DNA of 64,000 nucleotides, taken from positions 2,232,001-2,296,000 of the forward strand of contig OY725505.1 of the NCBI GenBank assembly GCA_963281255.1, read 5' to 3'. This document shows, piece by piece, positions 22,325 to 59,284 of this stretch. Position numbers and translations under genes: made by a program. This DNA is from Aphrocallistes beatrix. Its lineage: Eukaryota > Porifera > Hexactinellida > Sceptrulophora > Aphrocallistidae. Positions within the stretch are counted from its first letter, which is position 1. Every line of letters starts with the position of its first letter. A model generated the notes under the pieces. That model searched no databases, was not told where the DNA came from, and saw only the letters and a program-made list of their open reading frames with translations.

Positions 22325-22423
22325 GAAAGACCCAAAGATATTAGTTTAGAATTTCTTAGTTTCTCTCTTTTTGATTTATCTATCAATTCAACAATCAATT
22401 TATCACAGAGTATCAATGAACAG
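22325..22423 (+). CDS. RNF213-like exon a (33 codons)
   Basis: A pyrimidine-rich tract and TTTAG precede the exon; CAG|GTAATG follows it. The frame, beginning ERPKDISLEFLSFSLFD, is phase 0 at both ends. Identity rests on joining in frame to the next exons; its own sequence is not distinctive. Confidence 0.65.
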
Positions 22424-25400
22424 GTAATGTTGTATAACATTTTCTTTATATTTAAAATTTGCATTGTAATTATATTTGCCAATTTTTGTAAAATAAAGAT
22501 AAACCTGATTGAACCATAAAATACATTTTTGGCCTTCTATAACCGATACTTTGCCTTTCCTGTAATAGTAACACTGAACACTAGATACTGTATAACTAAC
22601 AATTTATACAAAGTTATAACACCATTCTTTCACTCAATACAGTATAAGGACCGATATCAGAGGATAGGAATTTAAATAAAAATCTATCGGTTTATCTTAT
22701 TAGCAGAGTTGCCATGGAAATGGGAATTTATGGGTTTCCTATATGGGATGGGAATTAATGAGTTTAAGCCTATTGATATTCCCACATGTAGGAAACTTTG
22801 GGGATTCTATGAGCATATTTGGGTTTCTGTGGGTTTCTGTAGGTATTCATGTGGGTTTCGTGGGTATTTCCTGTGGATTTCTGTCGGTATTCCTACAGAA
22901 ACCTGTGGAAATGGGTATTGAATTCCACTCCCACTGCTACCCTGCTTATTAGACATTAATGACATTAAGATTTCATTTCCTGTTAATATCCACTAAATTT
23001 TATTTGTATTTTAGTCAATTTTATCAATTATTGCTATCATTCAGAACAATTTTTGTTTAAATAAATTACCTTGGAGACCACCATTGCGTATAGAATGTAT
23101 GTTTTAATTAACAATATTAAATACTTATTTTTATTGCCCTGCGTGCGACGAATTATTTCGATATACAGTCTCTACAGTTGGCACACTCGAGACTATATTT
23201 TCTTTTTGTTAATAATATTGAATGAACTATTCAATATTTACGACAGAGAATAATGTTCACTATTGGATGTTTGACAGTAATTAAATAGGAATTAAGTTAA
23301 TTTAACTTCCTTAGATTAATCGTCAAGACTTTATGGAATACATGAAGAAAAATTGTTCCCTTTTGTTGTTAAGTTGTTTACAAGAAAGATCGAGTCTAAA
23401 TATTGCTATACTTAGACTTTTATGGCATTTGACATTTATCTTGAGATCACACAGATATCCAGCTATTTTTAAACAAATTTCGTATATTTTTGGAAATCCT
23501 GAAGCACTCGAAAAGACATATTTCCCAACAATGGAGGATTCAGGATCTGATTTCGCCAGATCAATTTTAAACATGAGAGGAAACACGACTGGAAATTGGT
23601 ACTCTTGCAAGAATGGACATATTTATTTCATTGAAAACGTAAGCCAATTAAACTAGTTCATCGATTTTTACCAACCATATAAATTTGTAGATTACGTAGC
23701 AAATTTGAAATATCTTCATTATTCAGGACTTATTATATATACAAACGCGCTTTGCGCACTTGTGTAGCTAGCCTATGGGTTTTAAATAATTCCTAATATT
23801 GATTACTTTCACCAATTCATTTCGAAATTTGTTTAATACAAGCGCGCTTCGCTTGCTTGCGCTGCGCAGCTGGCGGACACTTTGTGTCCGCCTGGAGTCA
23901 CATTGGCTAATTATAAGGGGGATAACATCTCTAAATACGTCTGTCCTACTGTTATAATCTATAGCGCACGAAAAACCACCAAATTTATCAATTTTTAAAA
24001 TTTCGATGAGTACTGATGACGTCATAACAAAGTGATGAGTCATCATTTTGGATAGGATAGAAGCATTTTGCACCAGAAATTGTGCAAAGAAGAGGACTGA
24101 AATAGTGCTTTAGCTCCTGAATCTTGCTTCAGTCTCACGAACTCCTCTTCGGTGATATCATCGTCGATGATGGCGTCTAATGATGCACTGAAAGGGTCTC
24201 GAGCAACAGCGAATGACTGGGTGTCGAGCTCGGGAAAATAGTTTTCGAATTGACCGATCAGTGACTGAATATGTTCAGTAATTCCGTGTGAAATATGCTC
24301 GAGATCGATGTCTTCCGATTCTTCCATGTGTGCAGATAGACGCGGAAATAAAACGAAGCGGTTGTGACTCACTTTATCTTTCAACAAAGCCAGTGTTGCA
24401 AGAAACCCTTTAATTTTGTCATGGAAGAGCATCATGTTCGTATCTTTCCCTTGAAGCGTACGATTTAGTACATTGATACGTTCAAAAATGTCACTCAAAT
24501 AGCACAAGTTAGCAACCCAGTTACTGGACTCAAGCATTGTTACTCATTCATTCTTATTTTGTGTACGTAGGAACTCTTTTAATTCTTCACGTAGCTCGTA
24601 AACACGTAAAATAACATTTCCTCGTGAGAGCCAATGTACCTTAGTGTAGAACAGTAAGTTTAAGTGGTCAGCGTCCATTTCATGACAGAATAATCTGAAT
24701 AACCTCGTGTTTAGGGCACTCGATTTGATGTGATTTATTATTTTGATCACCTGCGAAGAGACGTTCATCAAGCTTTCTGGCATTGTACGGGCAGCCACGC
24801 TTCCCGATGGATCATGCAATGTATCATCAGTGCATGAGGAGCCACTTGCTGTAATTTCGTTTTGAAGCCGGAATGCTTCCCAAGCATTGCAGGAGCTCCA
24901 TCTGTTGTAGATCCAATTAATTTATTGAATTCTAGACCTTCTTTATTGTAAAAAGAATTGATTTTGTTGAAAATGTCTTCTCCTTTAGTTGTCATCTCCA
25001 ATGACTTGCACATTAAAGGCTCGTCGACAAAATCGCAATATTTGATAAACCTGATCCAAATCATTAATTGTCCGCATGATGCAATGTCAGTTGATTCATC
25101 CAGCTGTATTGCATGCCAAGGTAACTCCTTGATAGCAGCTATATTCTGGGCGGTAATGTCCTCACATATGTCACAAATTCTGCGATGAACAGTGTTATTT
25201 GAGAGAGGAATGATTCCGAGTTTACTAACCATTTCTTCTCCGATCATGAGAGAAACCATTTCCTTGGCACATGGCATTATCAGCTCCTCTCCGATGGTGT
25301 GTGGATGTTTAGCTTTTGCAATGCGCAATGAAACCCGATAAGAAGCTTCCAGAGCATGCTCATTGTTCTGACTATATTTAGCTTGTTTATCCAAGCGAGT

Positions 25401-28400
25401 GTCTCTAAGGGAGGTCAACTTCCGTTCGAAAAAGGAGCGATCTCTATCTTTGTACGCTGAATGTTTTGAAGACAGATGTCGTTGTAATTTGTTCTGTTTC
25501 ATGGATTCACTCGAAAGTACTTCGTAGCAAATAACGCACTGAGATTTCTGGAGCCCACAATCTGTCACATAATAGAAACCAAGTTCAATGAATTTGTCTT
25601 GGTAATGTCGTTCGCGTGATGCTCCCGCCATCTCCCTGCACGAAACGTAACTCTAGAGTCTAAACTTAGTATTAGCAATATAAAATGATGGGTATAGGAA
25701 CGAATACGTGCAATAACGAAAAAGATTAGAGATTAGTTCGCGACCCCAATTGGGGTCGCGACCCATAGTTTGGGAACCACTGTGCTAGTAATATATTCCC
25801 AAGCTCTATTGTGCTTCTTAATGATTTAAGGCAGCTCATGTATTATTTCAACCATCTTACCGCATCCCTAGTCCCAAATCCGCAAGTCACTGTAAGGCCT
25901 TTTATACAGTAGGCTATTACTATATATATATATATATTAACTCAGTCATTTTAGGTGATAGAAAGCTGAAATTTTAACCCGATGTGTATATGAATTGATC
26001 TCAAATATGATACAACTCTCATCAAAGAGTGATGACTCATCATTCTTTTATAAAGTCATCAAAAATTTAAGAATTGACAATAGTGGTTTTTCGAGTGATA
26101 CCGATTATAGCAGTAAGACAAACATGTTTAGAGATGTCATCTACCTTCTTATAATCAATCATTGAGCGCCCATTGGGCGCCTCTGGCGATACAACGTATT
26201 GAGTAGGCTATGGCTAGACTGATTGTAACTGTTAGAATTTTGAAGTCTTTTGATAGAATTATCTCAACTACAAAGTGCAACCCATGGACTCCAGGAGTTT
26301 ACCTACATCTACTCGTATTCAGATAATACAGGTAAACCTCCCAAAGCGGCACCCATCGGGAGAATGATTTTGTGCCGCTTCTTGGAGGTTGCTCGTATAC
26401 ACCCTTAATATATTATTCAAAAGCTAAAATAGCATATATTGATACTAATACGTAGTAATCGGTTATATGAGTCTAAATTGGTTATAAAGACGTTTTTCTC
26501 TAATCATTTGTGAGAGGTTACCATGCTTATATGGATATTTGGACTCCAGAGGAAGGAGAACGTTTGAACTTAATCGGGGAGCAAGACAATATTAAATATA
26601 AGTATGCAGTATCAGTTATGAAAGACGGCCTGGTTGTAGGCCATGTCCCTTATAATCTAGCACCAAGAATTTCACAATTTTTGAAGAGAGACATAAACAA
26701 GCCTTTGCTGAGGTTAAATCTAAACCAATAAACCGAGGAGGAGGTTTTAATTATTCGAATAATTTATCCCTACAATTTATGACTTTTTCTTGATAAAACT
26801 TTATATTTTCCAATAATTCTTCTCAGGTTTAATGAATTATGAATTATTCGAATTATTCGAATTATTCATTAATTCATGAATTAGTCAACTTAGCAAAATA
26901 TGTTAATCGAAATCTACACCCCTAAAAACCACATGTCACCCGTTGGAAGCTAGTCTCTACCATTATTCTCAAAATTCATCAAATGGTGTGAAAATATGCA
27001 TATAAAGGTGTGAAAACATGTACATAATATTTTTTAATTCCATACATTATAATACATTTAAGCATAGCCTACAGTATATAAGGCCTCACAGTAACTTGCG
27101 GATTTGGGACTAGGGATGCAGAGGAAGACCGTTGAACTAATACATGAACTGCCTTAAATCATTAACAAAGCACAATAGAGCTTAGGAATGTATTATCAGC
27201 ATATATAAATATGGTGTCAAAGTACCCATGTTCGTTGTTAAAATTTTGATTAGTCACCATATGGTTGCGCAATAGGTTATATTTGTGACAAATTTGGTGA
27301 ATTTGGTGATTTTGAGGCCGTTTAGGGGCACTTCTAAGTGTTTTTATTGTAAAGTTTTTTCGCACAGAACTGAGATGTGAATGAGTTAATACGAAAAATT
27401 TGGAATTTGTTCATGGAATGTTAGTACATTCCAGTGTTGCTATGGAAACGTGTTTTGGTCAGTTGGCGTTATATCTTGAAAACTGCAATGGCTACCCATT
27501 CAAATGTAATTCCATTTGATAGCGAATATACTACTTCCTATTAAATGATAATATAATTTCGACCTCTAAATTCAATAGTTTATGAGATATTCGACAAATT
27601 ATCAAATGTGACCAATATGGTACATTGTCGAATATCTCATAAACTATTGAATTTAGAGGTCGAAATTATATTATCGCTTAATAGGAAGTAGTATATTCGC
27701 TATCAAATGGAATTACATTTGAATGTGTAGCCATTGCAGTTTTCAAGATATAACGCCAACTGGCCAAGTGCCCCTAAGCGGCCTCTGAAAATCACCAAAT
27801 TTGTCACAAATATAACCTATTGCGCAACGGATATGGGTACTTTGACACCATATTTATATATGCTGATAATACATTCCTAAGCTCTATTGTGATTTGTTAA
27901 TAATTTAAGGCAGTTCATGTATTAGTTTAACGGTCTGCCTCCGCATCCCTAGCCCCAAATCCGCAAGTTCCTGTGAGGCCTTATATACAGTAGGCAATGA
28001 TTTAAGATATCAAACATAAGTTGTGGTTTTGAAGTATTAATAACAATTACGATCTATTGTAGTGTCATAATTGTACAATGATTTCTATTATGGTAGTGTA
28101 GTCATTTATTTTGTATAGAAAAGGTGTGAAAATTTCCATTTTTTTGCAGAGGTGTGAAATTTCGCTTAGATATTAGAACTTAATCGTAGCTATATCATTT
28201 GACACCTACATGCCAATTTTCACATCTCTCTGACTTCCCGATTCCACAATCAATTCGGACAAACAAATAAACAAAAAACAAAAAAAATCCTAGCATTTTA
28301 ATATATAAGATTAGTAATCTGAAAGCAGTACAGTCTAGAAACGATTCTACAACTGACGGTTGAGATAATTCTAACAAATGACTACTTCAAAATTCTAACA

Positions 28401-31400
28401 AATGACGCTCTCGCTTATGAATTTAGTGATCAAAGCAGAGTTACGTTTAAAAGATAATGACTTGAATCTTATTTGTGAAGGTAGATCGATACCTATGTCT
28501 CCATTGAATTAGTGATATTATTTACAAATCCAAACATTTTTTCTTTTGATCATTGGTACAGAACTGTTCTGATTAGCGAATGTATATTGTGTTAACTGTA
28601 CATTATATTTATCTGTTACAATCAATTTGTTTAGCCGCTTTGATGATTTAGATATTAATATTCTTAGTGTGGAAGACCTTGGAGTCGGGGTAAATGTCCT
28701 GATTGTGGTGAGATCATTGGCGGAGCTGATTTGCATGTCTTACATGAAGGAAACAAAAGAATTTCACAGGAGATGTTAGGAACTGGTTATCTACTGAAAG
28801 ATTCTACAGATGTTAACTCTCTCCATTTACATAAAAGGTAACTGTTTGTAGAGTATAAGTTTACTTATATTAAAATGAATTAATATCAATAGATATATAA
28901 CTATGTGTTTTCTAGTCTAACAATATATCATTTTTGTATCTTATATACAAGCACAAGTTTTGATCACTTGGGAGCAGCGCGTCCTGCGGACACAAATAAT
29001 TTTAATATTTCAAAAACTAACATTAAACATATTTACAATATTCAAACTTAATAAGATATCGGCAGTTACCATCCTGAGATCACTATCGGATTGAAGTCCG
29101 ATACCGAGCTGCAAATGTTTCACTACACATCTGAAAATTTGGAGTCCTTAACTAATATGATTCCTGCAGGAGAAGGGATAGTTTTATTTCTAATTTTTGA
29201 AACACCAGACTATTTTGTAACTGAAAATAACAACTCATTACAGGATTATACATTATTGCCACCCTTTAATAATTTTTCATTCCATTAAGTTATGTCATCC
29301 AATATGTTATCAATTACTTTTTGTTTATTCAATCAATTCATTATATGATTTGTATTCTAGTATATAGTTATGAATTTGATGAAATTCTTAAATACTCCTG
29401 CACAAAATAATAATTACATAAATTTCCTAAAATGTTCAGAGATTTATCATAAAATCTGGTTTCACTATCTTACCGTAACATATACAAGTTCACCATTTAC
29501 CTTTGTATCTCTCTTTTTACTTTTAGGGCTATACATCCTATCGGTGTTGTGATAATACAGATTCTTATTCACTCTACATTCTTAATAGCATCTAAGCTGA
29601 ATGACCCAAATTCTTTGACTTGCCTATTAACAACAACTGATTTAGGGAAATTAACATTAGAAGAATTTTTCACTCAGCGTCTATCAAAAGATATTAGTAA
29701 TTTGAAGATTCTAACACAGAAAAATTGTGATGAAGCTATCCTTTGTGTTCATATTATCTTGAAAAACTTTCTCATTTCACCAGAGAAAATTAGTAAGTTT
29801 TATTATGATATTACTACTACACTGATATTACTACTGATATTATGATATTACTACTGCCTTAACTTCAGCTAATGAATCAAGTCATTATAGGTGCCCAACA
29901 AGTGCATATAATTTCTCATTTTGCCTCATCCATGATTTTTTAAATTTCAATAGAATAAAACTAAAACTATGTCTTCATCATTTATGACAAGTATCACTGT
30001 GAGTATATAGAAACTAGTCTAGATGTGGGGTCTCTTTACCTATGTTTATGTTTTCCCCTGTACAATTATTTAATCGATATACCTCCCTGACATGAAATCT
30101 GAAAATGAATATATACCCTACAATACAAACATACTTTAGCACCATGTTGGGGGGTGATTATTCGAGCCAATTATCCCTACTACTATTCGAGTTTATACGA
30201 TACTTATACTTATATATTAAAATGTTAGGGCATAGCATTCTATACATAAGGCAATGGCAGTCACTATTTTTTTTGACCAGGGATTGCTTAGTATATTCAA
30301 ATTAACATTCATCCTTTATACGTTATATATGATTAATTAAGCATTTTAAGTGACCTCACTCACAAATATGACCATTAATTGTCAAGATATATTTGATCTT
30401 TGTAATTATTTTTATTCTGGAGAAAACAAATATGACATAATATAAATATTAAGCTCATAAATACAAAATAAATATTAGATTTCGAGAAGTACTAATGAGA
30501 CGGACTTCTACTTTTTGATGGCAGACTATGGCTTGGCTTAGCTTGAGACAGACTTGACTTTGCTTGAGAGATAGACTTGACTTAGCTTGAGAGACAGACT
30601 TGACTTAGCTTGAGAGACAGACTTGACTTAGCTTGAGAGACATACTTGACTTAGCTTGAGAGATAGACTTGACTTAGCTTGAGAGATAGACTTGACTTAG
30701 CTTGAGAGACAGACTTGACTTAGCTTGAGAGACAGACTTGACTTAGCTTGAGAGACAGACTTGACTTAGCTTGAGAGACAGACTTGACTTAGCTTGAGAG
30801 ACAGACTTGACTTAGCTTGAGAGATAGACTTGACTTAGCTTGAGAGACAGACTTGACTTAGCTTGAGAGATAGACTTGACTTAGCTTGAGAGACAGACTT
30901 GACTTAGCTTGAGAGATAGACTTGACTTAGCTTGAGAGATAGACTTGACTTAGCTTGAGAGACAGACTTGACTTAGCTTGAGAGACAGACTTGACTTAGC
31001 TTGAGAGACATACTTGACTTAGCTTGAGAGACAGACTTGACTTAGCTTGAGAGATAGACTTGACTTAGCTTGAGAGATAGACTTGACTTAGCTTGAGAGA
31101 CAGACTTGACTTAGCTTGAGAGACAGACTTGACTTAGCTTGAGAGACAGACTTGACTTAGCTTGAGAGATAGACTTGACTTAGCTTGAGAGATAGACTTG
31201 ACTTAGCTTGAGAGATAGACTTGGCTTAGCTTGAGAGACAGACTTGACTTAGCTTGAGAGAGACATACTTGACTTAGCTTGAGAGACAGACTTGACTTAG
31301 CTTGAGAGATAGACTTGGCTTAGCTTGAGAGATAGACTTGGCTTAGCTTGAGAGATAGACTTGGCTTAGCTTGAGAGATAGACTTGACTTAGCTTGAGAT

Positions 31401-34400: not shown

Positions 34401-36333
34401 CAAAGAATGGGGGATCCAGCGGGCACACAACTTTCGTAGACAAAGTTCTTTTTGTATAATGACATTAATAGTCCCGATGAGAGGCCAGTTTCATGCTCTA
34501 TCTGAGCGTATGTAACATGAGAATCCTGGATCACTAGTTCCAATACTTGATCCACATTTTGTTCATTGTGGGAAACACTCGGCCTCCCTGCACGAGGAGC
34601 ATCCTCTAGAACGAAGTTCCCATGAGTAAATTCTCTGTACCATCGCTCAAATGTACTCAAAGAAGGAGCAACATCTGGGAAATGTTCCTGTAAAGTTTCA
34701 TGGATCTCCTGCATCATCTTCTTCATTTTGAATAAAACAAAATCATTGCACGAAAATCACGTCTAGTGAAATCTGAGGATGATGTAAGCAAGTTAGAAGC
34801 CATGGACTAACAAGTCAAATATTTCTGGAAGTATAAAAGATAAATGAATGAAATTTTCAGTGTATACTAATAACCGCAGAATGAAACGAATTAGCAATAA
34901 ATCTTTCTTCTAGATTAATGGTTTACATAGCAAACGTCAAAACTCGAGTGCCTACGTATGTGTGTATATATATATATCTGTAACGAATTGGTTGAAGAAA
35001 CTGCCAGATTCATCATGGAATTATAACGTCATTGTCACATTTTTAAAAGTTAAGAAATATAGTTATTCGAGCATAACTCAGCCATTATAGGAGATAAATG
35101 GCTGAAATTTTAATAGAATATGTATACTAACATACTTATGCAACTATAATAAAAAAATGATGACTCATCACTGTTATGACGTCATCATTACTCATCAAAA
35201 ATTTTAAAAATTGACAAATTTGGTTATTATTCGAGTGATATCGATTTTAACACTAAGATAGACGTATTTAGAGATGCTATCTCCCTTATAATTGACCAAT
35301 GTACCCCCAGGCGACCGAAGGGAGTCTCCTGCGGGCCCTTAGTGTCCGCCAGCCGCGCAGCGCAAGCAAGCGAAGCGCGCTTGTATTTAATATTTCACAA
35401 ATGATGATAGCAATAATTATCAAAAAATGATGAGTCATCGTTAAAGTGTTACACCATCATCCGCATAATCAAATTACTAGTTGACTAATATGCTTATAAC
35501 TCGTAATGTCTAAATGCTGCAAGAACAACCACTAAAGAAGGCACGCATATACACTATAATATTATCTACTACACTATCTATTATTTGTCCATTTTGGTCA
35601 AAAATACTTAATGATCATGAGTGATGACGTCATTGTCACCTTTCTTTCATTTTCAATTTATTAGATGGCCTCTAAATTCTATAATTTTCCCTGGCGTCTT
35701 CAAGATGCCTAAAACGGACACGAGGTGTTCGCTAGCCACGCTATTTAAGTGCGCGAAGCATGATTATATTTGTTATTTAATTTTTATTTATTATTCTAGA
35801 GTCCTCTTTATCACTCATTAGAAGACCTGATGATAGAGAATTATGGGAAAAAGATTTTTATGATAACATTATTTTTCCAGCCCTTGAAGATATGGATTCA
35901 AGCGCCATAAATCTTTACCAACACTTTAATATTCCTCGGTAAGTAAAGTAATTTTTCATTTATACTGTCCCAATAATATCAGTCATGCTGTCAGTTGATC
36001 GAATTACATTTTAAATATCTTACAAGCGCGCTTCGCTTGCTTGCACTGCGCGACTGGCGGAATTTTTGATGACTAATGACAAAGCGATGAGTCATCATCT
36101 TTTGATAATAGTTGCATCATATGTGAGATGTGTTAGTATACATATTCTATTAAAATTTCAGCCTTCTATCTCCTATAATGGCTGAGTTATGCTCGAATAA
36201 CTGTGTTGCTTAACTTTTTAAGCATGATGAGTCGACATTTTCGTCTAACTTACTGGAGCCATAGCCAAAAAACTCCCACATGCAAAAATCAGCTTTCTGT
36301 GGCTGACAGTTTCTTCAATCAATTCGTTACAGA

Positions 36334-36371
<38 letters not shown>

Positions 36372-36862
36372 TCACATACACACACAATAATCGAGTTTTA
36401 ATAGTAAGGATATATATATATATATACGTATATATATATATACAGTCGACTCTCGTTAACACGTACACCAAGGGACCGTGGATATTTGTACTCCTTATCC
36501 GGAGTACGTATTAACCGAAGTACGTACATAGCCACATTTGTCCAAAATACTTAATATACATAGTGATAACTACGTGAGAGTATGAAATTGTACTTGTCAA
36601 ATAGAGAATTCATTATCCATGTTGTATTAACGATATTCGACAGCATTTTCCTTGAGAAATATCTGTCTAGTATCTATCTACGTACATACTACGAACCATA
36701 TTCGAAGTGCTCGTAGGCACACACCTGTTCGTATTATCCGTGTTCGTGTTAACCGGAGTTCGTTTGTATATATTTTGCCATAGATTAGGTTGGGGAATCA
36801 AAACTTGTACTTCTTATCCGATTGTACTCCTTATCCGTGTTCGTATTAACGAGAGTCGACTG

Positions 36863-36893
<31 letters not shown>

Positions 36894-39800: not shown

Positions 39801-42800
39801 CGTTTTAGTTAAGCGTATACAGTCTGTTAACTTGAAATTGGGTGCATTTTTGATGTTTTATATATCCTATGATAGTTAATCTTACATATTAAAACGCTAG
39901 GATGTTTTTTGTGTTTGTCTGAATTGATTGAAGAATTGGCAAGTCGTAGAAAGATGAAAATTGGCATGTGGATGTCAAATGATATAACTACGATTAAGTT
40001 TGAAGATCTAAGCAAAATTTCCACAATTCTGCCAAAAAAATGGAAAACAATTTTTCAATATACGTGTATATGACTTCACTCTCATAAGAGAAATCATTTT
40101 ACAACACTACAATATATTGTCATTGATATTAATACTTCAAAGCTACAACTTCTTCTTGGGTGGTGCAGTGGTTAGGGCGTTTGAATAACAATACTTAGGT
40201 AGCGGGTTCTAACCTCGCTCTAGTCATTTGCATTTTACTCCCAATTACATTGCTTTGGTAATGTAATCTGAGCCTACACTCTTGCAGAGCCTTAGTGAGC
40301 TGAAAGCACTAAGGATGTCATCTCGTTTAAAGGTAAAGTTTAGTCAGGTGCTATCTTTCTTGCCTACTGTTAGCCGAGTTTTTCTCTGTAAACATGCTAT
40401 CATATGCATACACACATGCCGCATACACCACAGTCAGCAACTATCAGTAGGTTTAGCACCTCACCCAGATTGAAAACCCCCTGAGAACATATTAGCATGG
40501 ATTCGGGGGGGTATATAAATCTATAAACTTAACTTTAACTTTATAATATATAGCATAAAAAAGGTTGTGTGGATATTTTCACATCATTTGACGAGTTTTG
40601 AAAAATATGCTCGAGACTAGCTTCCAACGGTTGACATGGTATCTCTTATATGTCTATTCAACTCTACTGTAGTTCCATATCATCATTATCACAAAATGGC
40701 GGATCTGATTTCACATCAAAATTTTGGATGAATAGATCTTTGATTGGTTTGAATAATTTTAAATCAGTATTCCTCTCACAATCTCCTGCAGAAAAGAACA
40801 GTTATCCTATTCTGAATAAATTTGTAAATGAGGAGTTTCTTTTATCTGTTACCCAGCATTTGCCTGACATTATCCGACTACAAGCTATGTTATTCAAAGA
40901 CTTTGGGTTTCGAATTGATAAAACTTATGCCAAAAAGAACTCTATAGAGCAGATTCTCAAAAGAATTCCATCAGGTGTATATATTTTGTTTAAATGAATG
41001 TTTTGCTCTGAGATTAATTTATTTTTAACTTTAGTGACGATGGTAAAACCTTTTTAGTGACGATGGAAAAAACCTTTAAAGAAAATACACAGTGGGAAAA
41101 TTGGGTAGATTGAAACCGTTTTTTCTCAAGGAAAAAGCAGACGATTTTGAAAAACACCTAACTGCAAATTCACTTACAATTTTTATTGTTCAGACTCCAT
41201 AGAACACGATTGTATCTCCACTGATGAGAATTTTTGCACGAATTTCCTGAAACTCTTTTTAAAACCGCATAATTTACTGCTTAAATCTTCTAATATCCGC
41301 GTTAAAATTGCAGGAAGTCTTGTATTTCCCTAAATAATCACCCTAGCAATAATAAATTCCATACTAATTTTATTGAATCGTGACAATTTTGTCAAAAATT
41401 CCCTTCCCGCATTATCTTTATCTTATATATTAAAATGCTAGGATTTTGTTTGTTTGTTTGTTTGTCCGAATTGATTGAAGAATTGGCAAATCGTAGAGAT
41501 ACGAAAATTGATGGGTGTTACTTTAGCAGCGGATTCAGCAGTGGATTCGCCGTGTCGCACTTAAATGTTACTAACTTCATGAATTTAGGTCCGATTTGAA
41601 ATCTGATTATATCAATGTGTAGAGGAGGTCTGGACGTTTCATAATCTCAGTTCAAACCCCGAAATATCCAGTGATGACTTAGCATTGACCTTTTAATTTT
41701 TTCACGGTTTTTCTTGAATATCTCAAAAGCTATACGAGCTATTGAATCTATCTTAGACACATATGTGCTCCAGGTCTGGACGTTCATGTAGTTAAAATTT
41801 TAAGTCGATAAGTTAAGATTTATGGTCGATTCAATTTTTCATAGTTCATAAGTGTTACTTTAGCAGCGGATTCGCCGTGTCGCACTTAATTGCTAATAAC
41901 TTTAGGCCGTTGCTAGGAACGGCCAACCTAAACATTCTCCAAATATGGCCAATATATATATATCAAATGGCTGGAAATTTAGTGCTGGACCCGAATTAAA
42001 CAATAAAAATGTGATCTGGTGTGATTAAAAGTAGATAATACTGATAGATTCAACTCCGGTGATATCACATTATTAAATGTAAAATTCAAATATTAATAAT
42101 TCGTTCAAAAATTAATATTAAGTTGAAATTTGAAACACAAAATATACCAAGGCTGAAATAAACGTAGTTTAAAGGAAAAGTTTTATCATAAATATTTCAC
42201 GAGATATTAACCAAAAACTGAGACCGAAATTTGATGTGTCACTGCTAACTCATTTTGTAAGAATTTAAAAATTAAACTTAAAAATTAAATACACCAACTC
42301 TCTTCTTTCCACTGGTATGATTATTTTTTATCTAGAACGGATACCTTTCGAGTTATAAGCGATTAAGTGTGACTTCGAATCTGCGTCTAACACTAGTGTG
42401 CGAGCCAAACCAGTAAAAAATTGAACCGACCACAAATTCACCAAATTTTAACTTATTAGCTTCAAAATTTAATATCACAAACGTCCAGACCTCCTCTACA
42501 CGTTGGCATTATTAGATTTCAAATCGGATCCAAATTCATAAAGTTATTAGCATTTAAGTGCGACACGGCGAATCCGCTGCTAAAGTAACACTTATGAACT
42601 ATGAAAAATTGAATCGACCGTAAATCTCAAGGCTCCCAACCTGTCAAAGCCAGGAGCGTTCGGGTCTCCCCGTAAGTCGAGAAGGAAATCAACACCCAGG
42701 TAATCAGATGCTAGAGAATGGGCTCATTCGACAATCCTCCTCGCCTTGGGCAAGCAGAGTGATACTAGTGCAGAAGAAAGACATGTCCTATCGGTTTGCC

Positions 42801-45800
42801 GTCGACTACAGGGATTTGAATGACCAGACTAAAAAGGATTCTTACCCTCTGACAGATGTCAACGACATCTTGGACAAACTACAGGGTAGTACGTTCTTCT
42901 CATCTTTGGATGGTGTTAGTGCTTATTGGAGTATCCCGATTGTGGAACCCGACCGAGAGAAGACAGCCTTCATTACACCAAGCGGGCAATTTGAATTCTG
43001 CGTTATGCCCTTTGGGTTATTCAATGCGCAAGCCACGTACCAACGAGCAATAGACTCTGCCCTTATAGGAGCTACCAATAGCCTTCCGTATATAGACGAC
43101 ACACTGACTTTCTCACGTTCCTTCGACGAACACCTTCGACACCTCCGTTTAGTCTTAGAGTCCTATCAGTCCGCTAATATGCAGCTCAAGCGGGACAAGT
43201 AAGTTCGCGTTCAGCGAGTCCGAGTTCCTAGGTCACCTATTGTCCAAAGATGGGTATCAACCCCTTCCTAGCCTAGTAGCGAAAATTAAGAGCCAGCCTC
43301 GACCGCGGGACTTGAAATAACTCCTTTTTTTTTTTTTTAAATTTTATTATTTTCTTCATCATTAAATCCCGCTCAGAAGAAGTACAGTGAAATCCTGGAT
43401 GGGATTCTCTATCGGAGAAATCGTATCATAATCCCAGCATCTCTTCGCCAGTCCGCACTAGAATTGGTACACCGAACTTATAATGTATATGTTACCTTGC
43501 GGGCAGGACTAGATAATTTCGAAAGGGGGAGTGATGTCATGTCGCTAATTAGTTAGTTCTCACTAGGGTTTGGAATTATCCGTCTTTCACAAATATCCGG
43601 ATACCGAATACTTTTTCATCAGAGTATCCGGATATCCGGATATCCGCCTACAAATAATACCTGTCTTTCACATGTATTACCTAAGATAATTGACTAATTC
43701 AACGAACATTAATTATTAATCTAAACGAATGACAAAATAAGTAATGATGTGTAATATATTAGTCTAATTCTTTTGATTCTTTAAATAACTTCTGATGAAA
43801 CATAAACTATCTAAAGTATCATCAGCTAATCTAGATCGTATTTTTGTTATGAAGAGACCAGCAGCCGAAAACGCTCTTTCAGACTCTATGCTAGTTGGAG
43901 GTATTGTGTCCAAAGCTTCCGAGACTAAGGTGAGATTTTTTGACTTTGTACCAGTCTTTCTGAAGAGATCCAACTCATCACTTATAATTTGATCTAATGT
44001 CTGAGTGGGAATCTTGACGTTTGTGGTAGTTGTTGATTCGCGAATAGCACTTTCAAGTTCAACCAGCATTAGGTTAGTAGGTTGCATGAGACCTGGGCTT
44101 GTGAAGTTGTGTACAATTTCACAAGGAGCTTCTTGACCAGCATTACTCTCCTCGAATATCCCTTCAACGTTTATGAATTGCGATTCAGTATCTGAAAATT
44201 CGCTAGGAAATAATCTCAAAAATAATCTCTTAATAGTTGAGACAAGGGTGGAATTGTTTGTCTGTACTCCAGATATTCCACTTGGGTTAAGAAGAAAACG
44301 ATATATATTCACAATATTATTTTGTTTTCGTTCGAGAAAGCGCTTCTCTACAGCCGATTTCAGATCTTGACAGAATGAAATTGACGAATTTTTATCAAAC
44401 TGATCCATCAAAAATCGGTATACCCCTTCAGCTGAGAGCAAAGTTGCATCTCTACGACTTAAGGCACAAACAGCTATCTCAATTGGTTTTAGGCATCGAC
44501 AAATATGATCAAGAATCTCCCAATCAATTGAGTCCATCTTCTCTGTAGCTGCAATATCGATCAATGCTTTGCTTATAGGTTTTTTAAGAGATATGAATCT
44601 ATCTATCATTGCTAGCAGACTGTTCCAACGAGTTTTGCAATCAAGAAGGAGAGATAACTCTTTGCCATTCTCTTCTCGCACATATTTCTGGAGGATTGAA
44701 TTCTTAACCAGTGATCTTTTGAAGAGACGCACAATTCTCCGAACCTTAGAAATTACTTCCTCTATCCATTCTCTAAGTAATGGAGGTGGAATACTATAAT
44801 CAATACCGCCATCTAAATCAGTAATGGCATCATCACTGAATTCCTCTTCATCAAGGGGCATCTTTTCAATAAAGCTTGAGGTAGGTGAATATAAAAAATC
44901 ACAAACGGCTAAATGAATCCCGTGTGCATAACAAAGCTGTTGTTCTGGTTCGATCAGTTTACCATACTTAACCATAAGTGAGGCTCCATCATTAACAGTT
45001 GCTACAATATGTTTGCTTAGAACTAAACCATATTCCAAAAGTTTATGGCTAACCATCTCAACTACTTTCTCAGCTGGCATACTTCCTGATATCCTTTGCA
45101 TACCCAAATTCCAAAAACATTCTTTGGTATGCAAATTAATATTCATAAATCTGCGATTATGACATGAAGTATACTCATCTAATGAAATACTGAATCTTGT
45201 TCCTTTGAGAAGTAATCCTGATATTTGTCTTGACAAATTTTATTTAATACTTTTGCTGAAGGAAATGACAAGTCTTGCTGCAGTTTTCGGGCACAAAGGT
45301 GGGCTATATCCTTTTTCATTCAAAGATCTCCTAATGAATTGACTTCTTACTATTCCATGGAAGCTAAATCCATCCTCCGCAGTAAGTCTAGAGATAATTT
45401 CTGCTAAAGACTCCTTCTTGGTATACTGTAGAATTTCTGATTGATTATTACATTTCTTCTTTGCCGTTTCTGGGAACTCATTAAAACAAATTTTGTGCTT
45501 CGAGCGGCAATGATTTCGCATAGCACTAGTACAACCGCCCTTACAACAAATTTGTGTATTACATATATTGCATGTTGCTAAATCGCCCTGTCGTGAAAAA
45601 TGTTGCCAAACTTCAGATTTCTTTACTTGAATTGTGGACATGTAGAATATAATTGGAGGAAATATTTTGATAATATACTTATAGTCATCTTGTAGCTGAT
45701 AGAATCAGATAGATAGTCGAGTAGTATGTATAGAAATGTGTTATAGCAAAACAATCATTGTTATTGGTATTATGCTTGAAGCTTGTCAACAGCAACGAAT

Positions 45801-48800
45801 CTATATTTGTATCAGATTTGTTATAACGATTTTAAACGAATCAATTGTATGAATCCGGATATCCGTCAGGCTAATATCCGGATAGCGGATAATTTGTATG
45901 GTTTAGGTAACCGGATAGTATCCGGATATTACTATCCGGATTCCAAACCCTAGTTCTCACCCATTAGTTCTCTAGTCACATGATTAGTATAGTATTGCTA
46001 TAGTTCGGAGATTGTAGGTACCAACCAACTTAGTTTTCTTAACTGTGTCTGTCTAGATAATTACAAGGTATTTATTCTAGATATTTTACTGACGTCTCTA
46101 ACAAATCTACGATTAATTTCGAAAATCTAAGCGAATTTTCACACCTCTGCAAATAAAATGGAAAACAATTTTTCACACCTTTTCTATACTACTATGTACA
46201 GCTTCACTCTCACAATATAAATTCACTGTACGATACTTTTGTAGGCTGTCATTGTTATTAATACTTCAAATCAATAACTTATATAGATGTCTCAATTATA
46301 TTATAGTGTATGGCAGTAAAAAGGTTATATGTATATTTTCACACCTTATATACATATTTTCACACGATTTGCTGAATTTTGAAAATTATGCTAGAGAGTA
46401 GCTTCCAACGGGTGACATGGGGTTTTAGGGGTGTATATTTCGAATATAATATTTTCTGATCCATATGAGAAGTTATTGGTTAACATTTGTTTACAATATT
46501 TATATAAATTAAACAAATTCCCAAAATAGGCTAGATTGAGTAACTCCAAGCACCCGCAGGGCGACTCTGCGGACACACAGTATCCACAAGCCGCGCAGCG
46601 CAAGTAAGCGAAGCGCACTTGTGCTATATATAAATATTGGAGATTTCAGGAATTTGGAAGTAATATTTCAATATTAATCTGAAATTCATATTTAGATCAG
46701 AAATCTGTTTTGGATGAATATAATAGATGTTTAACATCACTTTTTAAAGCCTTGAAACAGATTGGAAAGACGGTATTAACTCAATGGAGATTGCCTCTCC
46801 CGAATAAAGATACTTCAGATTTTGATTTTAACACTGAATTGATATACTTCCTTCCTACTCCCATGAAAGAAAGCAAATTGATATCGTCTCTTATTGACAT
46901 CCTTGTTTGTTCTCATAATTCTCTTGTACATGAATTTGAAAACAAAAATATAAGGTGAGCCAATTTTTCATTGATTATACGTACATATTGCACCAAATTT
47001 GGCCTTATGGTAGAGATTTGAACCTGAGTCCAAATTCTGAAATATATTCATATTATTTCGGGCCTTTAACCGTAGAATGCCCAGAGGGGACACAGTGTCC
47101 CCGATATCGCGGATGTCTCCCAGCCATTTTATATGGCACTGAAGCCATATAAATGCTGAGCCTTCTACAGTCAATTTCTATTTTTAGGAAACACACTAAT
47201 TAAAAATGACGACCAGATAGGGCTGATTCCATGCTGGCCTATTATACATATATACTTTCTAAGGTGGGTCTATTACAAACAACTTCCTTACCTAAGCCTC
47301 AGTGACTACCTTTAAATTGATTGTTATTCTTCTCGTTTATACCACATACCCAATTTTTAAATTTAGTTTATTTTGTATAGCTTTAAAGCAAAGAAATTAA
47401 GTGTTCTGAACATCCGACATTATCATTTAATTAACTTTCAAGACTCCTTCCATTCTCTTTTATTGTCTCAAATCAATTATCAGCTTCCATTATCACAGGA
47501 TAATTCAGTTACTTATGACTTTAAAAAAATTGAGGAAGAATTTGCAGAGCGATATTTGAGAATGAGTCTAATTCTTATTTACGAGAGGTCATTATTTGAG
47601 TTTAAGAGAGAAGCTTATGATCCAATTATTTTCCAAAAAGTGAAAGAACAAGTTAAACAGGTAATCCTTGTACATTACATAATAACTTTAATGACTACAG
47701 AGCAAAACTGGTACGTCATATGTAGTAATAGTTATTTTGTTTTGAAAAATGTATTGTAGCATCTTTACAGGATTGCAGGTACGAGAAATCGTTCTATCAC
47801 ATTGATTCTTTAGTGCATTGTTTATTCTCCTCGTTATGAATACAAAACATATTAATCGAATAATAATCTTGAAGTTTAATGATGCAAAATTAAACAAACA
47901 AGTCTTACATATCTTGAGCTTACACTGTAAGAACACTTTGTGAATCTCCAATTTTAATAGATTGTATATTAACATTCTACACATATGATAATAAAAAAAG
48001 ACGACTCATCATTCTGTTATTACACAGTGCCGGATTAAGCACGTGGCAGAAGTGGCATATGCCACGGGCCCCGCGCTTTTAGGGCCCCGCACTTTCATTT
48101 ACTTGTGCCTCAAGATCACCAACTGTTCTGGTGAATGATCGTCCTCTAAACTCCGACTCATAAAAATCAGTTACGATCGTGTATGACTCAGACCCGCTTG
48201 AACAGCCTCACTCTGCTTAGCGTAGAATATGAACTTCTTCGTGACATTGATTTGTCATCACTTATTCGTGACAAGTGCGCTTCGCTTACTTGCGCTGAGC
48301 GGCTTACGGACACTGTGTGTCCGCGAGTCGCCCTGCGGGCGCCTAGAGTTACTCAATCTAGCCCATTTTGAGAATTCTTTTTATTTATGTATAAATATTT
48401 TATAAATATTTGTCCACCTGGTCCAGCCATCTGCTAGGCATAATACAAGCTGTTAGTAATAGCATGGTTTGCCCTGACCAGTACTATGGGCCCCGCGTAA
48501 AAAATATGCCACGGGCCCCGCGCAACCTTAATCCGGCCCTGTTATTACATCATCATTTCGCGTCAAAAAGTGAAAAACTGAAAATTTTTCGAGTGAAATC
48601 GATTAAAACAGTAAGTCAGACGTACAAGTATTTAGAGATATTATCTAACTTATAATTAATCATTGTGATCCTAGACGCCCAAAGGACGCCTCGGCGTACA
48701 CAAAGTGTCAGCCAGCCGCGCAGCGCAAGCAAGCGAAGCGTGCTTGTGTTTCAATAATAATGAAACAAACTGCAATTCACATGGATCATTTGATTTCTTA

Positions 48801-49008
48801 CACTTTTTAGGAAAATATTGGAGCTGATAGTCTCAAACATATTAAGGATTCTCTCGAATCTATCAATGTTATCTCGGAAATACTCTTACTTGTTGATGTA
48901 ATCATTGGATTTGTATCTTCAGCTGGAGGAGATCCTAACTGTAACCTGCTTACATATATTACAGATATACTATGTTATGATGTGACAAATATGGCTAAAA
49001 TTAGAGAG
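22325..49008 (+). CDS. RNF213-like giant E3 ubiquitin ligase, RZ finger and C-terminal region (ten exons)
   Basis: RNF213 (mysterin) proteins are very large cytosolic AAA+ ATPases and ubiquitin ligases. Human RNF213 acts on lipid droplets and coats intracellular bacteria by ubiquitylating lipid A. Ten exons join in matching splice phase into 702 codons with no stop. Landmarks in order: FPTMED before the finger; an RZ-type zinc finger with WYSCKNGH, NCGRPW, KCPDCG and IIGG; a helical C-terminal region including SYPILNKF, LPDIIRLQAMLFKDF, DFDFNTELIYFLPTP and FVSSAGGDPN. These follow the order known from vertebrate RNF213. The AAA+ core and RING are not in the window and should lie upstream; the last part of the C-terminus should lie downstream. 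Introns 3, 5, 6 and 7 are 4.7-6.0 kb and filled with transposons. ZNFX1 also has an RZ finger but lacks this C-terminal region. The open, phased frame suggests a live gene. Confidence 0.88.
22704..22944. mobile_element. hAT-type MITE with degenerate GGGTTTCTGT repeats
   Basis: A perfect 8-bp target duplication CTTATTAG flanks it (22696-22703 and 22945-22952). The ends are CAGAGTTGCCATGG and the inverse-like CCACTGCTACCCTG. The middle is a degenerate repeat of GGGTTTCTGTGGG. It lies in the intron between exons a and b. Confidence 0.8.
23015..23096 (+). CDS. RNF213-like exon b
   Basis: The acceptor is TATTTTAG and the donor AAT|GTATGT, leaving phase 1. The peptide reads SILSIIAIIQNNFCLNKLPW. 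The intron before it (22424-23014) carries a 241-bp hAT MITE. Confidence 0.6.
23328..23638 (+). CDS. RNF213-like exon c, first half of the RZ finger
   Basis: The exon contains LLWHLTFILRSHRYPAIF, PEALEKTYFPTMED and the first RZ ligands, WYSCKNGH (Cys-x3-His). It ends GHIYFIEN|GTAAGC in phase 0. The acceptor CGTCAAG at 23327 keeps phase with exon b; an alternative AG at 23314 would not. The PEAL...F.PTM..D block matches the segment just before the RZ finger of vertebrate RNF213. Confidence 0.85.
23838..24055 (-). repeat. family A repeat, truncated
   Basis: The hairpin end ACAAGCGCGCTTCGC is on the left. The copy runs to the GATGAGTCATCATTTTGGAT block and stops at the truncated end of a hAT element. 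Confidence 0.7.
24056..25782 (-). mobile_element. hAT element (ZBED5/FAM200-like), truncated
   Basis: The high-coordinate end is a hAT terminus, TTTGGGAACCACTG, preceded by GGGGTCGCGACCC. The opposite end is missing where it meets the family A fragment at 24055. It was inserted in a P-like foldback, whose remaining half continues at 25783-25918. Confidence 0.8.
24060..25631 (-). pseudogene. hAT transposase relic, ZBED5/FAM200/SCAND3-like
   Basis: The first frame (24768-25631) starts MAGASRERHYQDKF and has a BED-type finger (CVICYEVLSSESM, then LQRHLSSKHSAY). It continues with the RNase H-like core: LPWHAIQLDESTDIAS, FNKINSFYNKEGLEFNK and STDGAPAMLGKHSGF. The second frame carries LLFYTKVHWLSRGNVILRVY, and the third (24043-24537) VANLCYLSDIFERINVLN. 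There is a frame change near 24770-24820 and an in-frame stop at 24544. The C-terminal dimerisation region is cut off. Confidence 0.88.
25783..25918. mobile_element. half of a P-like foldback
   Basis: The sequence matches the right arm of the P-like foldbacks, from the TATTCCCAAGCTCTATTG block to CCTTTTATACAGTAGGCTAT. The internal motif CTAGTCC lies 45 bp from the end. The rest was removed or displaced by the hAT element to its left. Confidence 0.6.
25936..26190 (+). repeat. family A repeat, degraded
   Basis: It runs from TTAACTCAGTCATTTTAGGTG through ATGACTCATCATTCTTTTAT to GAGCGCCCATTGGGCGCC. The hairpin end is lost. Confidence 0.5.
26331..26395. repeat. short inverted repeat, possible pogo-like remnant
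   Basis: AACCTCCCAAAGCGGCAC is followed about 25 bp later by its near inverse, GTGCCGCTTCTTGGAGGTT. It resembles the end of a TA-targeting MITE, but no flanking TA pair is clear. Confidence 0.3.
26507..26731 (+). pseudogene. HIRAN-like domain fragment in intron 3
   Basis: The frame reads VRGYHAYMDIWTPEEGERL, then YKYAVSVMKDGLVVGHVPYN and ISQFLKRD. This is the conserved start of a small domain (HIRAN-like: WTP...GE, then AV.V.KDG..VGHVP) found in many uncharacterised invertebrate proteins, often near transposons. The usual following half is absent. There is no splice support for its being an RNF213-like exon, and the exon c to d join is complete without it. It is probably a fragment of a transposon-associated gene. 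Confidence 0.55.
26905..28309 (-). repeat. family B repeat interrupted by a P-like foldback
   Basis: The body GAAATCTACACCCCTAAAAA, TGTGAAAACATGTACAT and the end CCTAGCATTTTAATATATAA are family B in reverse orientation. The copy is split at 27063-27999 by a P-like foldback, with its 7-bp target ATTTAAG duplicated. Confidence 0.75.
27063..27999. mobile_element. P-like foldback element
   Basis: A 7-bp duplication ATTTAAG flanks it (27056-27062 and 28000-28006). The ends are CATAGCCTACAGTA and TACAGTAGGCAATG. The arms are inverted copies folding near 27600. The motif GGACTAGGGATGC begins 44 bp inside the left end. Frames visible within the arms are by-products of the palindrome. Confidence 0.85.
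28668..28837 (+). CDS. RNF213-like exon d, second half of the RZ finger
   Basis: After TATTCTTAG the frame reads CGRPWSRGKCPDCGEIIGG, supplying the remaining zinc ligands, then LHVLHEGNKR and GTGYLLKDS. It ends HLHK plus two bases (AG|GTAACT). The join FIEN-CGRPW restores the family motif exactly, across an intron of 5.0 kb. Confidence 0.9.
28838..29526 (+). other. intron 4 of the RNF213-like gene
   Basis: No transposon with clear ends is seen. A 65-codon frame at 29091-29288 (starting MKSDTELQMFHYTSEN) lies here, but exons d and e join in phase without it and it has no recognised domain. Confidence 0.5.
29527..29792 (+). CDS. RNF213-like exon e
   Basis: The acceptor TTTTAG at 29526 is followed by one base that completes Arg, then AIHPIGVVIIQILIHSTFL, matching the RLLTHLALLLGAS region after the RZ finger. 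Further on come LTLEEFFTQRLSKDISNL and CVHIILKNFL. The donor is TTA|GTAAGT in phase 1. Confidence 0.85.
30532..31430. repeat. 23-bp minisatellite, about 38 copies
   Basis: The unit is ACTTGACTTAGCTTGAGAGACAG, shown here as ACTTGACTTAGC followed by TTGAGAGA(C/T)AG. Copies differ mainly at one C/T position and, towards the right end, by GACTTGGCT for GACTTGACT. The period of 23 is not a multiple of three and stops occur in all frames, so it is not coding. It lies inside the P-like element. Confidence 0.95.
32291..32416 (-). pseudogene. THAP zinc-finger relic of a P-type transposase
   Basis: From ATG at 32416 the frame reads MSCVAPGFTSNYRG, then SMKFFNLPKDGALRENE. THAP domains start C-x2-4-C (CVAPGCTSNY) and continue F.FPKD..LR. 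Here the second Cys is Phe. Another frame just downstream reads LSHFKSCEDYQNYKIPK up to a GTAAGT, like the closing HF...EDY part of a THAP exon. A deletion and frame change separate the two. It is a decayed N-terminal exon, clearly recognisable in pattern but not functional. Confidence 0.65.
33653..34956 (-). mobile_element. mariner element
   Basis: TA flanks lie at 33651-33652 and 34957-34958. The inverted ends are CGAGGGGCACTCGA and TCGAGTGCCTACG, and both continue with TTTTGACGTT-type sequence. The length is 1304 bp. It sits in the TA/TG-rich region of a family A copy in intron 5. Confidence 0.9.
33717..34726 (-). pseudogene. mariner transposase, nearly complete, one frame change
   Basis: The N-terminal frame (34400-34726) has HFPDVAPSLSTFERWYREF and EDAPRAGRPSVSHNEQNVDQ, the mariner helix-turn-helix region. 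The C-terminal frame (33717-34430) has the D,34D core: TGDETWIYHYD, LLHHDNASSHTALRTREFL and YSPDLAPCDFWLF, and ends SRMKKCIESHGEYFEKM. The frames overlap at 34400-34430, so a single frame change separates them. The total length of about 345 residues is full size. The extreme N-terminus may be lost. Confidence 0.88.
35385..35799 (+). other. end of intron 5
   Basis: Degraded family A-like pieces occur (GATGAGTCATCG, GAGTGATGACGTCATTGTCACC, and CGGACACGAGGTGTTCGC). No gene is seen before exon f. Confidence 0.4.
35800..35938 (+). CDS. RNF213-like exon f
   Basis: The acceptor TATTCTAG leads into RRPDDRELWEKDFYDNIIF, aligned with the NNWEKEIAAVISPELEHLD-type segment of vertebrate RNF213. The donor CTCG|GTAAGT leaves phase 2. 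It is flanked by introns of 6.0 and 4.7 kb. Confidence 0.85.
36022..36411 (-). repeat. family A repeat with internal deletion
   Basis: The hairpin end is at 36022. The sequence jumps from GACTGGCGG to AATTTTTGATGACTAATGAC, so the middle block is missing. It then runs to AATTCGTTACAG, a TA run and TCGAGTTTTAATAGTAAGGA. Confidence 0.75.
36443..36862. mobile_element. pogo-like MITE
   Basis: TA flanks lie at 36441-36442 and 36863-36864. The ends CAGTCGACTCTCGTTAACAC and TATTAACGAGAGTCGACTG are inverted repeats. Internal repeats of CTTATCCG and GTATTAAC resemble transposase-binding arrays. It is 420 bp with no coding capacity, in intron 6. Confidence 0.8.
36890..37691 (-). repeat. family B repeat with three tandem internal units
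   Basis: Reverse orientation: it ends CCTAGCATTTTAATATATAA. The unit from GTTTACTTTATG to the CTAGTTTCTAGC block (about 130 bp) occurs three times in tandem (36890-37310). The hairpin end is absent. Confidence 0.75.
38300..39418 (-). mobile_element. internally deleted hAT derivative
   Basis: It carries the first and last parts of a hAT transposase on the - strand with the middle missing. The high-coordinate end has G-run/C-run palindromes (about 39347-39410, such as GGGGGGGCGCGCCCCCC). The low-coordinate end and target duplication were not resolved. Confidence 0.6.
38413..39061 (-). pseudogene. hAT transposase remnant (N-terminus and C-terminus only)
   Basis: From ATG at 39061 the frame reads MASKRVRDSSDSDGQPLIQ and YYAKKPKDN, then stops. 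The C-terminal frame (38545-38931) includes ISNMHSLCVIYLCLPVSTC and EAERSFSMLRRIHTYLQSS, the hAT dimerisation signature. An in-frame TAA follows, after which the same frame continues QRLNHCAILSAHRDIV and FVDKTVQRKNIFGPALN to 38413. Most of the catalytic core is deleted. Confidence 0.8.
39886..40640 (+). repeat. family B repeat interrupted by a SINE
   Basis: It starts TATTAAAACGCTAGGATG with GAATTGATTGAAGAATTGG and is split by a SINE at 40155-40542. It resumes with ATATATAGCATAAAAAAGG and ends at the TCCAACGGTTGACATGG block, 33 bp before exon g. Confidence 0.7.
40155..40542 (+). mobile_element. tRNA-derived SINE
   Basis: The 5' part has an RNA polymerase III promoter: an A box at 40168-40179 (GTGGTTAGGGCG) and a B box at 40204-40216 (GGGTTCTAACCTC), about 33 bp apart as in tRNA genes. 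The head GGTGGTGCAGTGGTTAGGGC is typical of tRNA-SINEs. The body is about 300 bp of unknown origin, and the tail is a short AACTTTA repeat. It cannot fold as an intact tRNA. It lies in intron 6. Confidence 0.75.
40673..40974 (+). CDS. RNF213-like exon g
   Basis: The acceptor CTGTAG is followed by a base completing Arg. The exon includes FWMNRSLIGLNNF, then NSYPILNKFVNEEFLL and LPDIIRLQAMLFKDFGFRI, matching the PILWHFL...LPEILALQRDLVKQF region. The donor TCAG|GTGTAT leaves phase 1. Confidence 0.88.
41426..41512 (+). repeat. family B repeat, 5' fragment
   Basis: TATTAAAATGCTAGGATTTTG, the TTTG run and GAATTGATTGAAGAATTGGC are followed directly by the start of a foldback. The rest of the copy is missing. 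The preceding stretch (40975-41425, start of intron 7) holds nothing recognisable. Confidence 0.65.
41513..42594. repeat. foldback element with ends GTGTTACTTTAGCAGC
   Basis: Left GTGTTACTTTAGCAGCGG and right CCGCTGCTAAAGTAACAC are inverted. GGAGGTCTGGACG and CGTCCAGACCTCC pair likewise, giving arms of 300-400 bp. The GTGTTACTTTAGCAGC block is also repeated at 41856 inside the left half. No coding potential or clear target duplication is seen. Confidence 0.65.
43564..45952 (-). mobile_element. hAT transposon, almost intact
   Basis: A perfect 8-bp target duplication GTTCTCAC flanks it (43556-43563 and 45953-45960). The terminal repeats are TAGGGTTTGGAAT and ATTCCAAACCCTA. Both subterminal regions are packed with TATCCGGATA-like repeats, probable transposase-binding sites. 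The length of 2389 bp contains one transposase gene covering most of the element. It is the youngest-looking autonomous-size DNA transposon in the window. Confidence 0.95.
43764..45641 (-). pseudogene. hAT transposase with BED finger, open except for one stop
   Basis: From ATG at 45641, MSTIQVKKSEVWQHFSRQ starts a BED zinc finger (CNICNTQICC, then MRNHCRSKH). A single in-frame TAA at 45237-45239 interrupts it after SKSIK; the same frame continues NLSRQISGLLLKGTRFSIS, so nothing else is lost. The core has SISLDEYTSCHNRRFM, HIVATVNDGASLMVKYG and TRWNSLLAMIDRFI. It ends with the dimerisation signature SIESERAFSAAGLFITKIR and LCFIRSYLKNQ. The full length of about 625 residues is normal. It could be a recent nonsense change or a sequencing error. 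Confidence 0.92.
46090..46621 (+). repeat. family B repeat, 5'-truncated
   Basis: It runs from ACGATTAATTTCGAAAATC through TTTTCACACCTTATATACA to the hairpin end AAGCGAAGCGCACTTGT, stopping 75 bp before exon h. Confidence 0.75.
46696..46954 (+). CDS. RNF213-like exon h
   Basis: Two bases after TATTTAG complete Asp. The exon then reads QKSVLDEYNRCLTSLF, WRLPLPNKD, DFDFNTELIYFLPTP and LVHEFENKN. It matches INLPKDY...DLDTEFEILLPRR...LHNEIV of vertebrate RNF213. The donor is AAG|GTGAGC in phase 2. Confidence 0.9.
47381..47660 (+). CDS. RNF213-like exon i
   Basis: The acceptor TTGTATAG gives one base, then FKAKKLSVLNIRHYHLINF. DFKKIEEEFAERYL corresponds to FDLEKIQRQIVSRFL in the vertebrate protein. 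The donor AAACAG|GTAATC is phase 0. The short intron before it (46955-47380) shows no transposon. Confidence 0.88.
48025..48541. mobile_element. hAT MITE containing a family B fragment
   Basis: A perfect 8-bp target duplication TTATTACA flanks it (48017-48024 and 48542-48549). The ends CAGTGCCGGATTAAG and CTTAATCCGGCCCTG are inverted repeats. GCCACGGGCCCCGCG recurs inverted or direct near both ends. A piece of family B (hairpin end leftward, about 48263-48400) is inserted in its middle. Confidence 0.9.
48263..48400 (-). repeat. family B fragment inside the hAT MITE
   Basis: ACAAGTGCGCTTCGCTTACT is the hairpin end. The sequence continues through GGACACTGTGTGTCCGC to TACTCAATCTAGCCCATTTT and ATTTATGTATA, then stops. 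Confidence 0.65.
48811..49008 (+). CDS. RNF213-like exon j
   Basis: After CACTTTTTAG the frame reads ENIGADSLKHIKDSLESI, then VDVIIGFVSSAGGDPN and LLTYITDILC, a clear match to LGFLSTAGGDPN...YTQDIL. The donor GAGAG|GTATCT is phase 0. I could not find the next exon, expected to encode the last 60-200 residues, before the end of the window. Confidence 0.9.
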
Positions 49009-49137
49009 GTATCTTTAATTTTTTTATAGTGATTTTTATTTGGATTTCGTGAAATATTTCATTTTGTAGCACGACTAGTTTAATATGTATATATATATAT
49101 ATATCCTTACTGTTAAAACTCGTTTAATGTATATTTA

Positions 49138-52618: not shown

Positions 52619-52622
52619 AATG

Positions 52623-59227: not shown

Positions 59228-59284
59228 CATTAACAAACTATCAGGATATTAGTATATCCTTCAAATATTATGTTAACCCTAATA

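Follow-up and report, generated by a model that had tools for sequence, protein, structure and literature searches.

Gene structure

The question raised by this locus is whether short open stretches lying between mobile elements belong to one gene for an RNF213-type ubiquitin ligase and, if so, which part of the protein they would encode. RNF213 itself is a giant ubiquitin ligase of immunity. The window (the whole stretch of 64,000 nucleotides that was analysed) is AT-rich, with a GC content of 33-46% per 4 kb. Nine exons on the + strand, spanning 22325-49008, were read from the sequence and joined to give 2,037 bp (679 codons):

Exon 1, 22325..22423, + strand: 99 bp (33 codons), phase 0 at both ends; probably an exon, without detectable homology
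Exon 2, 23315..23638, + strand: 324 bp; pre-RZ region, then the N-terminal half (C-x3-H) of the RZ zinc finger
Exon 3, 28668..28837, + strand: 170 bp; RZ-finger part with the catalytic Cys and His and the third and fourth zinc ligands
Exon 4, 29527..29792, + strand: 266 bp; RNF213 homology
Exon 5, 35800..35938, + strand: 139 bp; collinear and phase-compatible in the joined peptide, weak alone
Exon 6, 40673..40974, + strand: 302 bp; RNF213 homology
Exon 7, 46696..46954, + strand: 259 bp; RNF213 homology
Exon 8, 47381..47660, + strand: 280 bp; RNF213 homology
Exon 9, 48811..49008, + strand: 198 bp; contains FVSSAGGDP; the last of the exons detected in the window

All nine exons were bordered by an AG acceptor and a GT donor (9/9 for each), all eight junctions were in phase, and no stop codon occurred in the joined 2,037 bp; the other + frames of the joined exons contained 46 and 73 stops, and the reverse frames 59, 23 and 65. 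For exon 8, acceptors at 47381 and 47402 both preserved the phase. Introns 1-8 measured 891, 5029, 689, 6007, 4734, 5721, 426 and 1150 bp, respectively, and the exons made up less than 8% of the gene span (2,037 of 26,684 bp).

Protein-to-genome alignment of mouse RNF213 on 22001-52000 gave a score of 428; the two controls, the reverse strand and the reversed protein, gave 90 and 65, respectively. Exons 3, 4, 7 and 8 were recovered at both borders, exon 2 at its 3' border (local start 23357) and exon 9 at its 5' border, together with part of exon 6, from 40792 and including its 3' border. Exon 5 was not chosen; 31580-31683 and 40288-40449, which replaced it and the start of exon 6, were judged to be alignment artefacts, as was a run-on at 50922-51322, corresponding to a DDE transposase frame. 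These scores bear on the reading of the locus as a series of open stretches that happen to fall between splice-like dinucleotides. Such dinucleotides are common, and exons 1 and 5 taken alone were indistinguishable from shuffles, but the alignment score relative to its two controls and the match of the joined peptide to RNF213 (E 1.6e-42) make a chance chain vanishingly improbable. The view of the initial annotation that matching phases without a stop are hard to obtain by chance was thus upheld.

The exons were also scored singly against mouse RNF213. The observed score was reached in 0/500 shuffles for exons 2, 3, 4, 6, 8 and 9 (z values of 11.8, 9.5, 7.7, 5.9 and 13.1 for exons 3, 4, 6, 8 and 9, respectively), in 1/500 for exon 7 (z 4.9) and in 82/500 for exon 5 alone. 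Exon 1 showed no similarity to mouse RNF213 beyond that of shuffles (261/500). The mouse piece used here does not extend back to the part expected to align with exon 1, but with the human RNF213 region that precedes it, 259/500 shuffles likewise reached the score of exon 1. With a codon model built from exons 2-9, exon 1 scored higher than all 3,385 open, overlapping 33-codon stretches in the non-exon DNA of 22001-49900. At least eight well-formed RNF213 exons are present, and probably a ninth. Homology and collinearity support eight of them, weakly so for exon 5, which appears to be placed by splice phase and collinearity and not by its own score; exon 1 is a probable exon, for which the evidence consists of its splice sites and codon use. 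Most of the support initially described for the exons was borne out, the exceptions being exon 1, which is without homology, and exon 5, which has little of its own.

An exon scan combining codon use with a splice profile was trained on the same nine exons and is circular for those nine, which scored 18.4-25.3; the best flank candidates scored 14.0 upstream and 11.5 downstream. An exon at 47188, proposed by eye, was dropped as out of phase with exon 7 (exon-scan score 8.2).

Ten exons totalling 2,106 bp had been claimed in the initial annotation, which gave this sum and a size range of 82-311 bp but no exon list, and the ten-exon layout considered here is a reconstruction. Sum and range were reproduced exactly with a start of exon 2 at 23328, which shortens it to 311 bp, and an 82-bp exon before it. 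Two open 82-bp candidates lie before exon 2, at 22769-22850 and at the following position:

Possible extra exon, 23015..23096, + strand: 82 bp, open, phase-compatible; probable tenth exon of the initial annotation; without homology

The composition of 23015-23096 was coding-like, a fraction of 0.0002 of open non-exon stretches scoring as high, and its exon-scan score of 13.6 was not above that of the best upstream-flank candidate (14.0). Homology gave no decision between the nine- and ten-exon readings. The nine-exon reading was preferred because the acceptor at 23328 is weak, scoring 1.4 compared with 5.8 for 23315 in a profile built without exon 2; that an 82-bp tenth exon, probably 23015-23096, is real is the less likely case. 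The outer ends of the initial layout, 22325 and 49008, were exact, while its total gives way to nine exons and 2,037 bp, the tenth being doubtful.

Relationship to RNF213

The spliced peptide was searched against all PDB sequences and gave 12 matches up to E 1, of which the nine best were RNF213 from mouse and human (E 1.6e-42 to 4.1e-40) and the remaining three were at chance level (E 0.23 or more). The RNF213-type identity initially proposed was in this way set against a possible best match to an unrelated family, and it stood. The match was collinear over query residues 48-668 of 679 (~620 residues) and covered mouse residues ~4372-4998 (numbering of chain 7oik, 5161 long), with 154 of 610 aligned residues identical (~25%); near the exon 5/6 junction the peptide was ~15 residues shorter than mouse RNF213. 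Alignment of the joined peptide to mouse RNF213 scored 613, compared with at most 115 in 200 shuffles. Frame 40635-40997 searched alone against PDB gave chance matches only (best E 0.28), and the single frames of exons 4, 6 and 8 gave no Pfam match above cut-off. Very probably the locus is the 3' part of a host gene, orthologous or paralogous to RNF213, in an animal that is most likely an invertebrate to judge from the ~25% identity to mouse. It encodes part of the C-terminal E3 module, beginning shortly before the RZ finger and reaching the SAGGDP segment. From the sequence, we infer a functional gene.

RZ finger and catalytic residues

The RZ-finger motif reported initially was confirmed, PF20173 matching the spliced peptide with 68.4 bits against a Pfam cut-off of 27. 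The open frame 23315-23656 (exon 2) alone gave 26.6 bits, and because splicing raises the score to the higher value, the exon 2/3 junction is independently supported. Intron 2 (5,029 bp, repeat-bearing) splits the finger just before the catalytic Cys, exon 2 ending in ...WYSCKNGHIYFIEN and exon 3 starting with CGRPWSRGKCPDCGEIIGGADLH.

In the available text of PMC11549300, the zinc ligands of human RNF213 are given as C4505, H4509, C4525 and C4528; C4516 is the predicted nucleophile, and the predicted general base is H4537. The mouse counterparts are Cys4451, His4455, Cys4471, Cys4474, Cys4462 and His4483, and mutants of each lost autoubiquitylation or had it lowered, according to the accessible part of PMC12075652; Cys4457, described there as neither conserved nor required, corresponds to Y in the window peptide. 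All six RZ residues, namely the four that bind zinc and the catalytic Cys/His pair, are present here; five keep the human RNF213 spacing exactly, and a one-residue insertion precedes the His. Mouse entries 6tax and 6tay differ at a position (R and K, respectively) that aligned with E (phmmer); we take this position to be the moyamoya site R4810, the entries presumably modelling the moyamoya variant. The RZ transthiolation site of RNF213 is thus kept at ~25% overall identity to mouse, and the 6tax/6tay position is not.

A ZNFX1-type protein sharing only the RZ finger has to be weighed at this point. According to the available text of PMC11959080, no protein other than RNF213 and ZNFX1 is known to carry an RZ finger, and ZNFX1 keeps the Cys/His pair (PMC12075652, accessible part), so that the finger alone cannot discriminate; exons 2-3 alone matched RNF213 at E 2.9e-09. 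Without the finger, however, residues 199-679 (after exons 1-3, ~480 residues) had E values between 1.2e-25 and 4.2e-25 with the nine RNF213 sequences, and the six other matches were all at E 0.16 or more. The ZNFX1 layout, in which the RZ finger is C-terminal and follows a helicase and NFX1-type fingers, was not seen here. Because the part after the finger matches RNF213 alone, the ZNFX1 reading is excluded with high confidence.

Introns and mobile elements

The four longest introns contained the following:

Intron 2, 23639..28667, + strand: 5,029 bp; degenerate hAT-like frames on the - strand, 24043-25652
Intron 4, 29793..35799, + strand: 6,007 bp; tandem array and mariner-type transposase (- strand, 33717-34756)
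Intron 5, 35939..40672, + strand: 4,734 bp; hAT C-terminal fragment (- strand, 38545-38964) and inverted repeat, 37109-38290
Intron 6, 40975..46695, + strand: 5,721 bp; reverse transcriptase fragment (42624-43202, + strand)

Intron 6 also carried a hAT transposase with a BED finger (43764-45704, - strand). Within the frames of intron 2, 24768-25652 matched DUF4371 under the Pfam cut-off and 24043-24543 gave no match. Transposon coding traces were found in introns 2, 4, 5 and 6 and in both flanks. Self-comparison of the window covered 40%, 37%, 54%, 17% and 27% of introns 2, 4, 5, 6 and 8, respectively, and 0% of introns 1, 3 and 7 and of all nine exons, these figures being lower bounds, since they count repeats within the window. 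Interspersed repeat or transposon DNA was thus carried by 5/8 introns and 0/9 exons, and the transposon-filled introns of the initial annotation were borne out for the long introns by Pfam traces and self-comparison. Transposon-filled introns are common; among the titles retrieved from the literature, none was on RNF213 with an intron and transposable element theme.

Further repeats were observed. Intron 1 contained a short tandem repeat (22820-22894), and the array of intron 4 (30528-31432) had a 23-bp unit in ~39 copies, with 46- and 69-bp periods in addition. An element of ~0.7-1.05 kb occurred in several copies and orientations, 83-91% alike (3888-4940, 27047-27767, 58131-59233), one copy being located in intron 2, in which a HIRAN-like domain fragment below the Pfam cut-off was also present (26504-26728, + strand).

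Flanking DNA

Looking for a RING exon upstream had been proposed in the initial annotation, and none that was convincing was found in 1-22324. In human RNF213, ~470 residues lie between the RING and the RZ finger. Human RNF213 4037-4557 (chain 8s24), spliced onto 1-23700, scored 99 compared with 89 for the reverse strand, and exon 2 was the sole convincing piece of this alignment. Two candidates for an upstream exon were rejected, 20253-20333 lying in 19821-20343, a segment with further copies in the window, and 20538-20605 at the start of a mariner-like frame. Downstream, a C-terminal exon (E2-docking domain, last ~130-150 residues) was not found in 49009-64000 (best score 57, controls 48 and 52), and a scan for the LW..L segment motif gave nothing convincing by eye. 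A downstream chain to 59735, obtained with a mild intron penalty (score 156), had several pieces in repeat or reverse-transcriptase DNA and disappeared under a stricter penalty.

These flanks are relevant to two other readings. A decaying copy, in which a recent duplication of RNF213 left a pseudogene or gene fragment with its frame still open, would agree with the visibility of only the 3' part and with 22.3 kb and 15 kb of flanks without a further convincing exon. The AG/GT borders of 9/9 exons, the phases and a frame open over 2,037 bp at only 25% identity to mouse count against decay, as does the retention of all six RZ residues, and the introns argue against a retrocopy; we consider such a copy unlikely. 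A reduced RNF213 lacking the RING and AAA+ parts, acting as a stand-alone RZ ligase, would account for the lack of an upstream exon within 22.3 kb and is considered very unlikely. For the preferred reading, the 3' part of an RNF213 orthologue or paralogue, the dynein-like AAA+ core (upstream), the RING and the C-terminal domain are expected to lie outside the window, and if exon 1 is right, it is preceded by an intron of more than 22 kb or by exons too diverged or too short to be seen.

Other features of the flanks were recorded. Three adjoining open stretches on the - strand (11082-15397) represented LTR-retrotransposon frames with aspartyl protease (at cut-off), reverse transcriptase, RNase H and integrase, and the element looks recent. 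Two reading frames on the - strand at 60507-61312, one with LLFLHAFTGCDTTS, are perhaps part of another mobile element; frame 60507-60902 gave no Pfam match at E 0.01. An assembly gap of 200 N (63771-63970) is located near the window end. Rfam at gathering threshold gave no match, and ARAGORN no tRNA.

Predicted function

The transcript would have ~25 kb of intron spliced out, and the AAA+ core, RING and C-terminal domain of the protein would be encoded beyond the window. In vertebrate RNF213, an E2 docks and ubiquitin is passed to the RZ cysteine and then onward (PMC12075652, accessible part). By descent, the ligase studied here would accept ubiquitin from a docked E2 on its RZ cysteine and then transfer it to substrates, the RZ histidine acting as base. 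From membership of the family, a part in cell-autonomous immunity may likewise be predicted.

Comparison with known systems

By raw reading, a gene can be recovered even where exons fill less than 8% of its span. Biologically the find is ordinary, as RNF213 in invertebrates has been published already and introns of this kind are common. RNF213 is named in the Manila clam, deep-sea bivalves and the sea anemone Nematostella in the available portions of genome and expression studies (PMC7430831, PMC9993606, PMC11299980, PMC13319465); the comparison with these genes is one by name, and to judge from those portions the window gene adds a member to a family already in print. With mouse and human RNF213 the encoded part shares the order of the C-terminal E3 module, the RZ finger with its ligands and Cys/His pair, and the SAGGDP segment. 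With ZNFX1 it shares the RZ-type zinc finger and its Cys/His pair (PMC12075652, accessible part), whereas ZNFX1, as described in the available text of PMC11959080, is an RNA helicase with a C-terminal finger, and here ~480 RNF213-like residues follow exon 3.
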